IMG/VR virus record: IMGVR_UViG_3300025661_000015 | Location: 1-31,615 of that record | From: a virus | Direction: 5' to 3' (one strand) | Length of the DNA stretch: 31,615 nucleotides | In this document: one piece after another, positions 1 through 29,955 of the stretch | Numbering within the stretch: the stretch's first letter is position 1 | Layout of the letters: each line of letters opens with the position of its first letter | Translations under genes and position numbers: made by a program | Notes under the pieces: model-generated | What the model saw: the letters and a program-made list of their open reading frames with translations, nothing else | Database searches by the model: none | What the model was told of the DNA's origin: nothing

Positions 1-3000
1 TAATTAAAGTTATGCATAAAAGGAGTTGCACCTTTATAAATAATACCATTTAAATCAGCGTTAGTAGTATTGGTAAGAGTTAAATCACTACTTAAATCTA
101 AACTTGTTCCAGTAGCAACTCCTATCTCTGGAGTAACTAAAGTTGGGCTTGTATCAACTACAAATTTTGTGCCAGTTCCTGTTTGTGAAGCAATAGATGT
201 AGCATTACCCACAGAAGTTATTACTCCAGTTAGATTAGCATTAGTAGTTACATTTCCAGCAGTAAAACTAGCCCCTGTTCCAGTTATATTAGTTCCAATT
301 AGTGTCGTTGGAGTTCCCAAATCTGGTGTTGTTAAAGTCAATCCAGCTAAAGTTAATGCTGATGAAGCTCTATTTATCGCCACACCAGTTGTTCCTATAT
401 ACATTGTTTGGTTAGCTTCTGCTTTTTCATTAAAAGTATCCCAATCAGTATCAGTCAAATAACCACTAAGAGCAGTAGTAGCTGCTTGTGTTGCTATTGC
501 ATGTTGTGCTGATGTTAAATGGTAGTATTCTGCACTTGTTCCTCCTTGTAAGCCTGTTGTATTATTATGGCTTACAGTTGAGCCTAATTCTACCCAAGAA
601 GTTCCATTAAATGTAAAATTAGTATCTTCTGTTTTGTTCCAACAAGTATCAGCTTCTTCAACTATTTCAAAATCCCAAGTAGCACCATTATATTCTGCAA
701 AGTTATCATCTTCTCCTGCGAAAGCTCCTGACCCTGTTCCAACTATATATCTATCTCCTGTTGTTGGACTTTCTGGAGGAGCGTCTGTAAAGTCTATTAC
801 TGCTTCTTTCCAGTGTAATCCCTCAAAAAGACTAAGAACTTGGTCCCATCTAGGTGTGTCTGAGTTATCAACAGCATTAGTGTTCAACGTAATCTGGTTA
901 AATGATGGCGTAGATGTCTCTGTTATATCTTGAATGGTATTTAATTGGTCAGACGTAATCTTTAAGTTATCAGTATTGTGTCCTAAAGAAGCAACAAAAT
1001 CTGTAATAGATAAAGGTAAAGAAGCTGTGACATCTCCAGTGTTAGTACCACTTAAGTTATCAGCCTCTATATCCTCTGCAACAACAACACCAGTTGATGT
1101 TACAGTTATTGCAGTGGTATCGTTAACGTCTATTACTCCACCACTTGGTAAATTTATAACAGTTCCTAATGACGGCAAAGTTAATACTTCGTTTGTTTGA
1201 ATTTGAAACATATAATATCCAGGATCAGTTATCCATTGTGAAAATAAAAATTTATAATATGTTCCTGTTACCGTGCTGCGTATTACAGTCTCATCCCCAA
1301 CAAGGTCAGGTAGCGCTTGTGTGCCGTAAGCAGTAACCCAGTCGCTTGTGTATGTTCTAGATTCTATATTAGATAAGTCAGTCCATCCACCGCCACCCAT
1401 GTACTCTGTATTAAATTCAACATTATCTACTGTACCATCATAAGACGCTTGGTAAGGATAGTTGTATAAACCTGTTCCACCATCAGCTAATCCTAACATT
1501 ATGGAACCGAATGCTATAGGTGCTAAATTATCGCCCCCATCCGAATGTCCAGCATAATTAGTAGCAGTAGAACCGAATGAAATGGATATAGAAGCTCCGT
1601 TTAATTCCACACCTAAATCAAATATAGGCACCCCATTAATTATAGTCTGAGGAGTTGTCTGGTCTAATAACATGTATGGGTCTAAGTCTTGATCGCCAGT
1701 GTTAGTACCACTAGTATTAGCTAGTCTAGTTATGGCTGTATCATCAGTAAACCTATTTGTGGCTGTGTCAGTAATGTCGTCAGTAGTGTCTACTGACTTA
1801 TAGAATACATCAGATAAGTCTTGGTCTCCTGTGTTAGTACCGGATAGGTTAGCTCCTGTTACATCACCACCACCTGTTATGTCACCACCAGAAATTAAGT
1901 TCTCTGCCTCTACATCACCAAATACTTTAACTATGCCAGTGTCTATATCAACCGTTTTAGTTCCAGCTACACTAATAACTCCACCGTTTGTAAAGTTTAT
2001 TGCATCTCCTGAAGACGGTGTTGTCTCTATTTCATAGGCTGTAGCTTTATATGTTCCTGCTGCAGTAGAGCCCCATGCTGTAAACTCTAATTTATAATAA
2101 GTACCCGTGCTAATAACACGGATTATAGTTTCATCACCTACTATATTACCAGCTATATCATCATCATACGCTGTGTCCAAATTAGTAGTATATGTTCTAA
2201 GAGCTATGTCAGTTAGGTCATCCCAACCTCCACCCATAGTTTCAGTATTAACCTCACATCCAGATAGAATACCAGGAGTAGACCCAGCATTAAGGTTTAT
2301 CCAATATTCTGACCCTGCATCACGCCATATTGTTACGTTACCATCTAGATTGAGTCTATCAGAATCACCGTATATTGCGTCTCCTAGTTCAATAGCTATG
2401 TCAGCTACATCTATAACTACTTCTCCACCAGCATACATAGCGTAGTTATTAGTTCCTACAGTTTGTGCGGCTAGATATAATCCATAAACATTTGTTGTAG
2501 TACCACCAACGTTGGTAACATCTGCTACTTTAATACCATAATAGTTTGTGATATCACCAGAAGTTGTGTTTAATGCGTTATCAACATACACTCCATAAGC
2601 TGAAGCTACTAAAGAAGTTGGAGTAATTACAGTATGGTCATAAATACCACCTGGAAAATCACTGCTAAAAGCACCGCCTATATCAATTTGTGCATAAGAT
2701 GAGTCAGCGACAGGTTTGCCTTGAGAATTATATGTAAACCCACCTATGCTAAGGCCATCTTGAAACACTACTGTATCAGTTGCTGATAAAGTAACAGCTG
2801 ATATGTTAGTACTTGACACTATAAAAGGGCTAGTAAAAGTACCAGTAACGATAACATCGTCACCATCTGTAGATGGTGTCAGTGTTGTCCCTGTCCTAGT
2901 CCAGTACTCCGCTCCTGCAGGTCCTTGTATCCCTCTATTTATCTCGAGTATCCTACTCTGACTACTAGTGCATATGTCTAATAAGTTTGCTGATGTAGTT

Positions 3001-3014
3001 ACTGTTAGTATCAT
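1..3014 (-). CDS. Long tail fibre protein, 3' end outside the window
   Basis: One frame is open from the ATG at 3014 to the left edge, 1004 codons with no stop, so the gene is partial at its C-terminus. The start is set by AGGAAGGGG seven bases upstream and by an ATGA overlap with the gene before it. The protein is rich in Thr, Gly, Asn and Ser, as beta-rich fibres are. Three copies of SGTNTGD lie near residues 389, 434 and 654. Two related modules (MGGGW near residues 260 and 538, each followed by VGDET and TGTYYK) show an internal duplication. Near residues 735-805 is a DUF2793-like stretch (GDRYIVGTGSGAFAG, then FNGTSWVEL), followed by a typical fibre segment, YYHLTSAQH. These features are common in phage tail fibres that bind the host surface. 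The C-terminal receptor-binding or chaperone part cannot be seen. Confidence 0.9.
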   Translation of the reverse strand, partial: MILTVTTSANLLDICTSSQSRILEINRGIQGPAGAEYWTRTGTTLTPSTDGDDVIVTGTFTSPFIVSSTNISAVTLSATDTVVFQDGLSIGGFTYNSQGKPVADSSYAQIDIGGAFSSDFPGGIYDHTVITPTSLVASAYGVYVDNALNTTSGDITNYYGIKVADVTNVGGTTTNVYGLYLAAQTVGTNNYAMYAGGEVVIDVADIAIELGDAIYGDSDRLNLDGNVTIWRDAGSEYWINLNAGSTPGILSGCEVNTETMGGGWDDLTDIALRTYTTNLDTAYDDDIAGNIVGDETIIRVISTGTYYKLEFTAWGSTAAGTYKATAYEIETTPSSGDAINFTNGGVISVAGTKTVDIDTGIVKVFGDVEAENLISGGDITGGGDVTGANLSGTNTGDQDLSDVFYKSVDTTDDITDTATNRFTDDTAITRLANTSGTNTGDQDLDPYMLLDQTTPQTIINGVPIFDLGVELNGASISISFGSTATNYAGHSDGGDNLAPIAFGSIMLGLADGGTGLYNYPYQASYDGTVDNVEFNTEYMGGGGWTDLSNIESRTYTSDWVTAYGTQALPDLVGDETVIRSTVTGTYYKFLFSQWITDPGYYMFQIQTNEVLTLPSLGTVINLPSGGVIDVNDTTAITVTSTGVVVAEDIEADNLSGTNTGDVTASLPLSITDFVASLGHNTDNLKITSDQLNTIQDITETSTPSFNQITLNTNAVDNSDTPRWDQVLSLFEGLHWKEAVIDFTDAPPESPTTGDRYIVGTGSGAFAGEDDNFAEYNGATWDFEIVEEADTCWNKTEDTNFTFNGTSWVELGSTVSHNNTTGLQGGTSAEYYHLTSAQHAIATQAATTALSGYLTDTDWDTFNEKAEANQTMYIGTTGVAINRASSALTLAGLTLTTPDLGTPTTLIGTNITGTGASFTAGNVTTNANLTGVITSVGNATSIASQTGTGTKFVVDTSPTLVTPEIGVATGTSLDLSSDLTLTNTTNADLNGIIYKGATPFMHNFN

Positions 3015-3361
3015 AGTGTAACCCCTTCCTGAACATTAAATGAACCGCGTATATAAATATCGTTTAGACTACTGGATACCAGAATTAAATCGTACACTCC
3101 ACTAGTGAACTCATAAGCTAAACTAGTAACAGCTGGAAACTTTAATGTAACATCCCAAAAATCGTCTACTTCTAATATAGTTATTCTATCGTTCTCAGTA
3201 GTTAAACTATCCAACTCCGTACCATCTATTCTATTTCTAACTTGCATCTTAGCAGTGTATCCAGATAGATCTACAACTGAACCATCGTCTTCCTTAGGCG
3301 TGATTGTAATATCGTTAAAATCAGAGTTTTGTTTTATTGTTATATTATATTCTGGTGTCAT
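3011..3361 (-). CDS. Small virion-associated beta-rich protein, BppU-like
   Basis: A 116-residue protein with the pattern of a common small phage protein found beside fibre and lysis genes: an N-terminal strand with a TIKQNSDF-like start, then VDLSGYTAKMQVR, and at the end GVYDLILVSS followed by a strand ending FNVQEGVTL. This resembles the N-terminal domain of baseplate upper protein (BppU) and related fibre-base proteins. The stop overlaps the fibre start by ATGA, so the two are probably translationally coupled and may work together, for example in attaching the fibre. The assignment rests on the general pattern and position, not on a unique motif. Confidence 0.6.
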   Translation of the reverse strand: MTPEYNITIKQNSDFNDITITPKEDDGSVVDLSGYTAKMQVRNRIDGTELDSLTTENDRITILEVDDFWDVTLKFPAVTSLAYEFTSGVYDLILVSSSLNDIYIRGSFNVQEGVTL

Positions 3362-23179: not shown

Positions 23180-23701
23180 CTACTCGTCAAACAAACGTTT
23201 TTCGAAGGTAATATTTCCTTTATGCTCCGTTATATCATGTGAAAGTTCTAAAATCTTAACTAGGTCTCTTAGAGCACCCTGTTTGTCATATAATACGAAG
23301 TGTACGTTTTTATTCCCCATCTTATCAAAAGTTATCTTTACGTCTTTTATACATGCTTTATCAGCTCTTGTTAGATTTGACCAATCTTCGAAGGACATTT
23401 TGTTGTCTTTGTATTCCCCATAGTCTGCAAGATTACTAAAAGCTATATTTTTTATTTCAGCAAGAACACGCAGTTTATCTATGTCTCCTTCTTTCAGATA
23501 CTCTCTGACTTTTTGTTCTATGTATTTTTTATTTTTTACGATTATTTGTCTGACTGATTGTTTTGTGAGTTTCGGAAACTCGTCGGCTGTGGATATTACT
23601 GGGTATTTTTCGCAAAATAGGGTGTTCTTTAGATACGCGTCGAGGATCGGCAAGTCTTTGTGATGTGGCTTATACGTATTATCGTTGGATTTGTTACCCA
23701 T
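23180..23701 (-). CDS. terS: Small terminase subunit (Terminase_2-like)
   Basis: A 173-residue DNA-recognition subunit directly before the large terminase. LAEIKNIAFSNLADYGEYKD, then DKACIKDVKITFDKMGN and FVLYDKQGALRDLVKIL are typical of the Terminase_2 family. The N-terminal 70 residues contain a region for DNA binding (TKQSVRQIIVKNKKYI). It would recognise the packaging site, which in many phages lies in or beside its own gene; the GC-rich region at 23853-23935 is a candidate. TAAGG seven bases before ATG 23701 is a weaker ribosome site. Confidence 0.85.
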   Translation of the reverse strand: MGNKSNDNTYKPHHKDLPILDAYLKNTLFCEKYPVISTADEFPKLTKQSVRQIIVKNKKYIEQKVREYLKEGDIDKLRVLAEIKNIAFSNLADYGEYKDNKMSFEDWSNLTRADKACIKDVKITFDKMGNKNVHFVLYDKQGALRDLVKILELSHDITEHKGNITFEKRLFDE

Positions 23702-24069: not shown

Positions 24070-24258
24070 ATGAAAGCTAAAGCAACGGGTACATTCGAAC
24101 GTATGATATCTTCGGGAGGCCGTCCACCTAGAGGAACGCATACTATGAAGATGACCAAAGGTAGAGAGATAACAGCAATGCGCGCTCGACATGGAGCAGA
24201 ACAGCCAATGAAAACATATGTACTATGGGACTTAAAAGCAATGGGACTAAAAGACTAA
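24070..24258 (+). CDS. Small basic protein, first gene of the plus-strand operon
   Basis: A 62-residue protein starting MKAKATGTFERMISSGGRPP, with AAGGAG five bases upstream. It is rich in Lys, Arg and Met and has no known domain. Being first in the early operon and basic, it could act on DNA or host protein. That is inference from position only. Confidence 0.7.
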   Translation: MKAKATGTFERMISSGGRPPRGTHTMKMTKGREITAMRARHGAEQPMKTYVLWDLKAMGLKD

Positions 24259-24281
24259 GAGACACAGAGACACAGAGACAC
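24258..24281 (+). repeat. Three tandem AGAGACAC repeats before a ribosome site
   Basis: The 8-bp unit AGAGACAC occurs three times without gaps right after the stop of the gene at 24070, followed within five bases by the GGAGGAGGTG ribosome site of the next gene. A partial fourth unit (GAGACAC) lies directly at that start codon. Such repeats can slip and so change the spacing or structure at a leader. Confidence 0.8.
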
Positions 24282-24297
24282 GGAGGAGGTGAGACAC

Positions 24298-24486: not shown

Positions 24487-24660
24487 ATGAAACGAGCAAC
24501 TAGAGAAGAAATGAAAAAGATAAACAAGTTCCTTGATAGCAAGGATAAAGAGGAAGCAGATGAAAAGTTTGCTTGGGAATCTGAACAAGCTTGCGAGAAC
24601 AACCAAGAATTTCAAGACACATTAAATCCTATTGGAAAACTATTAAGAGAGAGAGAATAG
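24487..24660 (+). CDS. Small charged protein
   Basis: A 57-residue frame from ATG 24487 with AAAGGAGGT eight bases upstream. It begins MKRATREEMKKINKFLDSKD and is mostly helical and charged, with many Glu and Lys. It ends at TAG 24658-24660, before the long inverted-repeat region. No motif was recognised. Confidence 0.65.
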   Translation: MKRATREEMKKINKFLDSKDKEEADEKFAWESEQACENNQEFQDTLNPIGKLLRERE

Positions 24661-24774
24661 AGGCTACTGAGTCTCCTGAGACCCCGTATAAATGAGCAGG
24701 ACGGCGTTATTACTAAACAATCGATAGTCTCCTATGCCTCGGGTGAATCTCGTGGCAGAATGAAAAAAAAAAAC

Positions 24775-24995
24775 TTTCCCAGAAAGCATAGGGGGGGGGG
24801 TACGATATTCACTAATATGACTACAAGTCTAAATGAAGACAAACTAAAATGAAGATAAACATAAATAAAATAAAAAGCAGTAACCTTTATAGCCTTATAT
24901 GTGTATCACTATATAGGCTTAATCACGTTTAAGCTTGTCTATATATTAGTGAATATCGTACCCCCCCCTAGTCTTTTCCTTCAAAAGTTGGGAAA
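24775..24995. repeat. Large inverted repeat with G10/C8 tracts
   Basis: Left arm 24793-24818 (eight of ten G, then TACGATATTCACTAATAT) pairs perfectly over 26 bp with the right arm 24943-24968 (ATATTAGTGAATATCGTA, then eight C). Pairing continues inward with ACAAG (24823-24827) and CTTGT (24934-24938), and outward with TTTCCCA (24775-24781) and TGGGAAA (24989-24995), with GAAA and TTTC between. TA borders both arms. Each arm also contains a small dyad (ATATT, four bases, AATAT). The G10 length may vary or be an assembly error. Confidence 0.9.
24891..24919. promoter_or_regulatory. Hairpin nested in the large inverted repeat
   Basis: AGCC, then T, then ATAT and GTG pair with CAC, ATAT and AGGCT around a TAT loop, leaving one or two bulged T bases. 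The stem has about 12 bp. It forms the tip of the large dyad, so the whole region could fold into a branched cruciform or an RNA with one long and one short stem. Confidence 0.7.
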
Positions 24996-25000
24996 AAGGT

Positions 25001-25024
25001 GTTTCTTGAAAAGTCTCAAGAAAC
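25001..25024. promoter_or_regulatory. Perfect 9-bp hairpin after the inverted repeat
   Basis: GTTTCTTGA (25001-25009) and TCAAGAAAC (25016-25024) pair fully with a six-base loop AAAGTC. There is no T-run, so it is unlikely to be an intrinsic terminator. It lies 6 bp beyond the outer arm of the large inverted repeat. Confidence 0.75.
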
Positions 25025-25114
25025 TCAGTGACCCTACCGTATTTGACTTATAACATGGAAAAACACGTAAAGACATGTTAAAATGACTACAAATTGAAAA
25101 AAGGAGGTGTTAAA

Positions 25115-25177
25115 CTGGAATTAATCGTCTTATTATGCGTTGTAATTGTGTGCACTAATATGCTCTACAAGTTATAA
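25115..25177 (+). CDS. Possible 20-residue membrane peptide with CTG start
   Basis: AAAGGAGGTG lies five bases before CTG 25115, a very strong site with no ATG, GTG or TTG start in range. The frame reads MELIVLLCVVIVCTNMLYKL if CTG is read as Met: one hydrophobic segment. It closely resembles in kind the 21-residue peptide at 28870. The stop overlaps the GTTATAAC palindrome at 25171. CTG starts are rare in bacteria, so confidence is moderate. Confidence 0.4.
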   Translation: MELIVLLCVVIVCTNMLYKL

Positions 25178-29869: not shown

Positions 29870-29876
29870 TTAATTT

Positions 29877-29939
29877 GTGCCCCAGAGTAGAGCCACATCC
29901 TCTACCCCCCGCTCTGGGGCACTCAATTAGGGTAGAGGA
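29877..29939 (+). ncRNA. Predicted H-type RNA pseudoknot in the intergenic leader
   Basis: Stem 1 pairs GTGCCCCAGAG (29877-29887) with CTCTGGGGCAC (29912-29922), 11 perfect bp. Its loop contains TCCTCTACCC (29898-29907), which pairs perfectly over 10 bp with GGGTAGAGGA (29930-29939) downstream, giving stem 2. A short alternative pairs TAGAG (29888) with CTCTA (29900) within the loop, so the element could switch. It lies between the SSB-like stop and the ribosome site of the gene at 29956. No T-run follows, so it is not an intrinsic terminator. Confidence 0.7.
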
Positions 29940-29955
29940 AACATGGGAGGATCAA

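Follow-up and report, generated by a model that had tools for sequence, protein, structure and literature searches.

A branched inverted repeat in a gene-free stretch of an uncultivated phage and its positional counterpart in a relative

The 31.6-kb virus record that makes up the window is classified as linear and is probably a fragment. The genes for terminase, portal, and protease lie on the minus strand up to position 23701 and constitute the late block; further on, there is a weak match to a tape-measure protein. From about 24070 onward, the plus strand carries small early genes, mostly of unknown function, that are provided with strong Shine-Dalgarno sites. Between two of these genes, at 24251-24290, tandem 8-bp repeats (GAGACACA) are present and end in a Shine-Dalgarno sequence. 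The dyad-containing stretch is preceded by three small genes and lies 1.1 kb inside the early block, next to the late block (Table 1). No relatives were found for the proteins encoded beside the dyad, and the public phage collection contains nothing closely related to this phage group. To the right of the terminator-like site at 24763-24786, no leftward gene was recognized.

Table 1. Features of the gene-free stretch and of the dyad within it (positions in the window)
Feature	Position	Strand	Remarks
Gene-free stretch, ~450 bp	24661-25114	+	Flanked by a small gene with its end at 24660 and by the micropeptide ORF at 25115; includes further hairpins besides the dyad; from ORF lists and sequence
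Terminator-like hairpin, CTTTC-TGG-GAAAG followed directly by T11 (24763-24773)	24763-24786	-	For leftward transcripts; not seen in G003
Outer left arm, TTTCCCA	24775-24781	+	Pairs with 24989-24995
Left core arm, 26 bp	24793-24818	+	Contains ATATT-CACT-AATAT; G tract reaches 24791
Dyad interior, 124 nt	24819-24942	+	Inner helix ACAAGUcUAAAUG / CGUUUAaGCUUGU; terminal hairpin around 24889-24925
Right core arm	24943-24968	-	Pairs perfectly with the left arm; includes C8 (24961-24968)
Outer right arm, TGGGAAA	24989-24995	-	Pairs with 24775-24781
Separate hairpin, 9-bp stem GTTTCTTGA / TCAAGAAAC	25001-25024	+	Between dyad and micropeptide
Extended -10 promoter-like site, TGGAAA-17-TAAAAT	25056-25084	+	Before the micropeptide
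Putative 20-residue hydrophobic micropeptide, LELIVLLCVVIVCTNMLYKL	25115-25177	+	Strong Shine-Dalgarno (AAAGGAGGT), but CTG start

Direct reading of the sequence bears out the perfect complementarity over 26 bp between the core arms (24793-24818 and 24943-24968) that had been reported in an earlier sequence-only reading, and the outer pairing described there is present as TTTCCCA and TGGGAAA. The tract of ten G (24791-24800, as assembled in the contig) faces eight C (24961-24968). That reading had considered these tracts very unusual and, indeed, they are the sole runs of G or C of at least 8 in the whole window. Each arm holds a small internal palindrome and the previously noted ATATT, four bases, AATAT, the four bases being CACT in both, and TA flanks the G/C tracts on either side (24789-24790 and 24969-24970). 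As an ungapped inverted repeat, the dyad extends to as much as 71 nt per arm with 72% complementarity. This agrees with the weaker inward pairing proposed earlier, but the inward part alone is within chance in a gapped arm-arm test (p about 0.11). The core stem, 26–28 bp long when folded as RNA, encloses a branched interior that is A+T-rich and contains two A-rich near-repeats, AAATGAAGACAAAC and AAAATGAAGATAAAC. Still further out, 24666-24682 and 25013-25029 are complementary over 17 nt (88%), a pairing that may be due to chance because similarly good pairs occur nearby. Near-identical 14-mers are found at the inner end of the left arm (TAATATGACTACAA, 24813-24826) and at 25079-25092 (TAAAATGACTACAA), where the second overlaps the promoter-like site before the micropeptide.

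The 26-bp stem is the longest in the record; across 20 dinucleotide-shuffled versions of the complete record, the maximum length of a perfect stem ranged from 10 to 16 bp. The sequence-only reading had proposed that the RNA fold be assessed, and for 24760-25010 the fold is strong, with z scores of -8.3 on the plus strand and -9.3 on the minus strand; the corresponding value for a DNA fold is -8.6. In a scan with 240-nt windows, the dyad is the top fold of the record on both strands. A search with the covariance models of Rfam 15 gave zero families at the gathering threshold, and the best likeness, a long-hairpin match to a microRNA family, was far below the cut-off. The dyad is thus real and non-random, and as a structural element it is probably conserved in a little-known phage group.

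Homopolymers such as G10 and C8, together with a fold-back shape, are typical trouble spots of assembly, and none of the other assemblies recovered here covers the segment. Close TerL proteins are encoded by four viral contigs, the same four being recovered in TerL searches and with two degenerate TerL patterns; the second pattern gave no match against genomes. Three of these contigs (G001, G002, and G004) share near identity with the window but break off within terL, and they are therefore uninformative on the dyad. More distant terL phages (25%–29% identity over the full alignment) have other gene layouts and no comparable junction. An origin of the dyad as an assembly or chimera artefact is nevertheless hardly credible. 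A fold-back chimera would be perfect throughout, whereas here just 26 bp are perfect and the interior has diverged, and a comparable dyad was assembled independently in the relative G003.

TA-duplicating MITEs of the Tc1/mariner-IS630 type are characterized by terminal inverted repeats that are flanked by TA at either end. The segment 24791-24968 resembles such a non-autonomous transposable element in its 26-bp terminal inverted repeats, in the flanking TA, which could represent a target duplication (weak evidence alone), and in the combination of perfect ends with weaker interior symmetry. A TA-flanked element was among four ideas offered without choice in the sequence-only reading; it is very unlikely here, and the position of the dyad and its counterpart in G003 lend support to others of the four, a structured early RNA and an origin or regulator-binding dyad. 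The dyad differs from MITEs in being present as a single copy, with no second copy in the record, and in having no relatives that could be found. A blastn search with 24700-25060 against phages and plasmids, as had been suggested, gave no match, the exact 22-mer arm pattern was absent from 2.9 million viral contigs, and the exact 21-mer pattern was absent from 84,980 genomes. An 18-mer search of the viral contigs returned one match to a single arm, which is attributed to chance because the partner arm is missing. All of these copy searches were exact or used blastn, and diverged copies would escape the exact search. Moreover, G003 has its own dyad at the locus and does not present an empty site, the interior symmetry alone is not significant, and the pairing extends beyond the TA, a point already raised against simple element ends.

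Perfect inverted repeats of 26 bp around a short spacer, with a small palindrome in each arm, also have the geometry of an invertible promoter, in which recombinase sites in both arms would flip the 124-bp interior. Such a switch has little probability. No recombinase was recognized among the window proteins scanned (a subset of ORFs), no promoter motif lies inside the inverted-repeat segment, and the outer pairing continues past the repeats.

Relatives lacking complementary arms had been named as evidence that would count against the dyad; the one relative that covers the region, G003 (contig 3300020048_001187; TerL 72% identical), has a dyad. No similarity was detected between the early DNA of G003 and that of the window, and there is no firm similarity in the early genes or in the dyad stretch. 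The longest perfect stem of G003 has 15 bp (AATATCTAATATATA / TATATATTAGATATT, 3075-3089/3149-3163) and sits between terS and a 24-residue hydrophobic micropeptide (MVRLVSLSIMIAIAISILIMYRGL, ATG start), the positional counterpart of the 20-residue peptide of the window. The distance from dyad to micropeptide is 157 bp in G003 and 146 bp in the window, and in both phages a second strong hairpin (25001-25024 in the window) lies between the two. Four of the seven best perfect stems of G003 are within 2363-3163. When G003 was scanned for folds on the early-RNA strand, the top 8 among 380 windows (180 nt) and the top 7 among 284 windows (240 nt) were all located in this stretch; for the opposite strand, this was true of only some of the top windows. 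The G003 dyad is located directly at the early/late junction, on the early side of terS and 454 bp from its start, a location that would suit a packaging (cos/pac) structure. In the window, however, the dyad is 1089 bp from terS with three small genes between, and the contig is continuous through the dyad with no break, so that a packaging function is at best a marginal prospect.

The 3′ arms of the two dyads have the sequence TATATATTAG in common. In addition, CTAATATATA is found in the right arm of the window and in both arms of G003, followed a few bases on by GCTTA. When the 3′ half of the window dyad (24887 to 24956) was aligned with that of the G003 dyad, the score was reached by 15 of 300 shuffles (p about 0.05); the 30-nt arm alone matches at 21 of 30 positions (p about 0.007), and the right arm of the window aligns with each of the two G003 arms at p about 0.01. 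These p values are modest, and alignment in the reverse orientation scores as high or slightly higher, A+T-rich symmetry inflating such scores. An extra 3-bp step, TCA/TGA, is present in both arms of the window and in neither arm of G003. A difference matched in both arms, which bears on the compensatory change among relatives that had been proposed as a test, is expected if pairing is kept or if the arms are homogenized at the DNA level. The sequence comparison is suggestive of a single element with two members. A positionally conserved cis-acting structure is favored over a MITE or an artefact because the G003 dyad is at the matching place, the arm sequence TATATATTAG is shared, and the 3-bp difference is matched in both arms. 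The dyad probably represents a functional signal, for control or for replication, and not a mobile element or artefact.

Action as RNA and action as DNA are not separable by the fold because the two phages lean to opposite strands. For the gene-free stretch of the window (24661-25114), the minus strand folds better (z -9.5 versus -7.3 for the plus strand); in G003, the early strand is slightly better (z -4.35 versus -3.8). The hairpin cluster of G003, dense and confined to the untranslated stretch that precedes the first of the small early genes, favors an RNA. The core stems (26 and 15 bp) are purely Watson-Crick in both phages, with no G-U pairs, as is also expected of DNA-level inverted repeats; this property, together with the arm sequence shared on both strands, favors DNA. 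On balance, a structured non-coding RNA or leader is preferred, with a probability close to, though below, an even chance.

Less probable, if still a serious contender, is an element that acts at the DNA level, either as a regulator-binding dyad whose arms are protein-binding inverted sites (ATATT-CACT-AATAT) or as a replication origin where replication proteins load on a cruciform. Besides the perfect arms, the CTAATATATA-type sequence common to three arms and the A+T-rich interior with its two near-identical repeats are consistent with this possibility; the repeats, however, are absent from G003, and no replication gene was recognized among the window proteins scanned. The skew analysis suggested in the sequence-only reading does reveal a change of sign in GC and AT skew at about 24 kb, but this switch alone is not evidence for an origin because it coincides with the change of gene direction.

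A possible parallel is provided by the lactococcal phages of Ceduovirus (c2-type), where the origin is in the non-coding junction of divergent early and late blocks and the origin types of close phages are mutually dissimilar, having diverged beyond recognition (PMC7150918). The stretch studied here is likewise non-coding, near the early/late boundary, and strongly diverged between phages; it lies directly at the junction in G003 and 1.1 kb away from it, inside the early block, in the window. In bIL67, the genome's two longest stems, of 14 bp each, are in or beside the origin region, whereas no long stem is present in the origin region of c2, which is also not its strongest fold. The architecture of the dyad and its fold is not matched in c2 or bIL67, and there is no sequence relation. 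The window stretch also differs in lying within the early block, and origin activity here is hypothetical. An origin of the Ceduovirus type is flanked by two early promoters that give rise to a non-coding transcript. In the window, there is one extended -10-like site (25056-25084); a motif search upstream of the dyad gave no convincing promoter, and motif matches in the dyad region were no commoner than in shuffles. By analogy, the dyad may work like a Ceduovirus origin; membership is not claimed.

Returning to the preferred RNA, we infer from structure and position that the dyad would form the center of a cis-acting, gene-free stretch with a control function, located at the early/late boundary in this group of phages. 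Early transcription in the rightward direction would yield from this stretch a non-coding leader with extensive folding, made up of the long stem, the branched interior, and the second hairpin. The folded leader may determine how the first early message is processed, how stable it is, or how it is translated; this message would begin with the tiny membrane peptide. Cleavage is conceivable, as a ribonuclease specific for double strands, such as RNase III, would find a suitable substrate in the long perfect stem. In phages such as T7, early messages carry stems that are processed by RNase III; these stems, like long-stem leader RNAs, feature a long perfect duplex in an intergenic position of an early operon. 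The window dyad, known from its structure, is like them in having a long perfect duplex in an early intergenic region and unlike them in the much longer interior that it encloses. In a related scenario, the transcript would serve as a primer for replication, as proposed for PE1-T, the non-coding PE1 transcript of c2-type phages, for which a role of its sequence or structure has been suggested (PMC7150918).

It is conceivable, if rather unlikely, that the two dyads define a class of phage element not described before, either a non-coding RNA or an origin primed by transcription, with a large dyad upstream of a micropeptide, arms that change together, and a structure and position that persist through almost complete sequence change. 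If confirmed, the dyad would be a small testable cis-acting element controlling early expression or replication in uncultivated phages. It would also be a case of structure and position kept through near-complete sequence turnover, for which two members constitute a lead.

Other structured or repeated sequences were observed away from the dyad. At 29870-29940 of the window, a GC-rich hairpin (GTGCCCCAGAG, 29877-29887) precedes a Shine-Dalgarno sequence and an ATG and encloses CCTCTACCC (29899-29907), which is perfectly complementary to the downstream GGGTAGAGG (29930-29938); this arrangement is possibly a pseudoknot leader or translational switch. In G003, an open-ended early protein (L010 3-542, minus strand) looks by eye like a sliding-clamp (beta clamp) subunit, with no match in Pfam. 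Between terS and the dyad of G003 (L005 859-922), there are two direct 32-bp repeats, CCGnAAAAAAATAAAAACTGAAAACCAATGTT, which may be iterons or packaging repeats.
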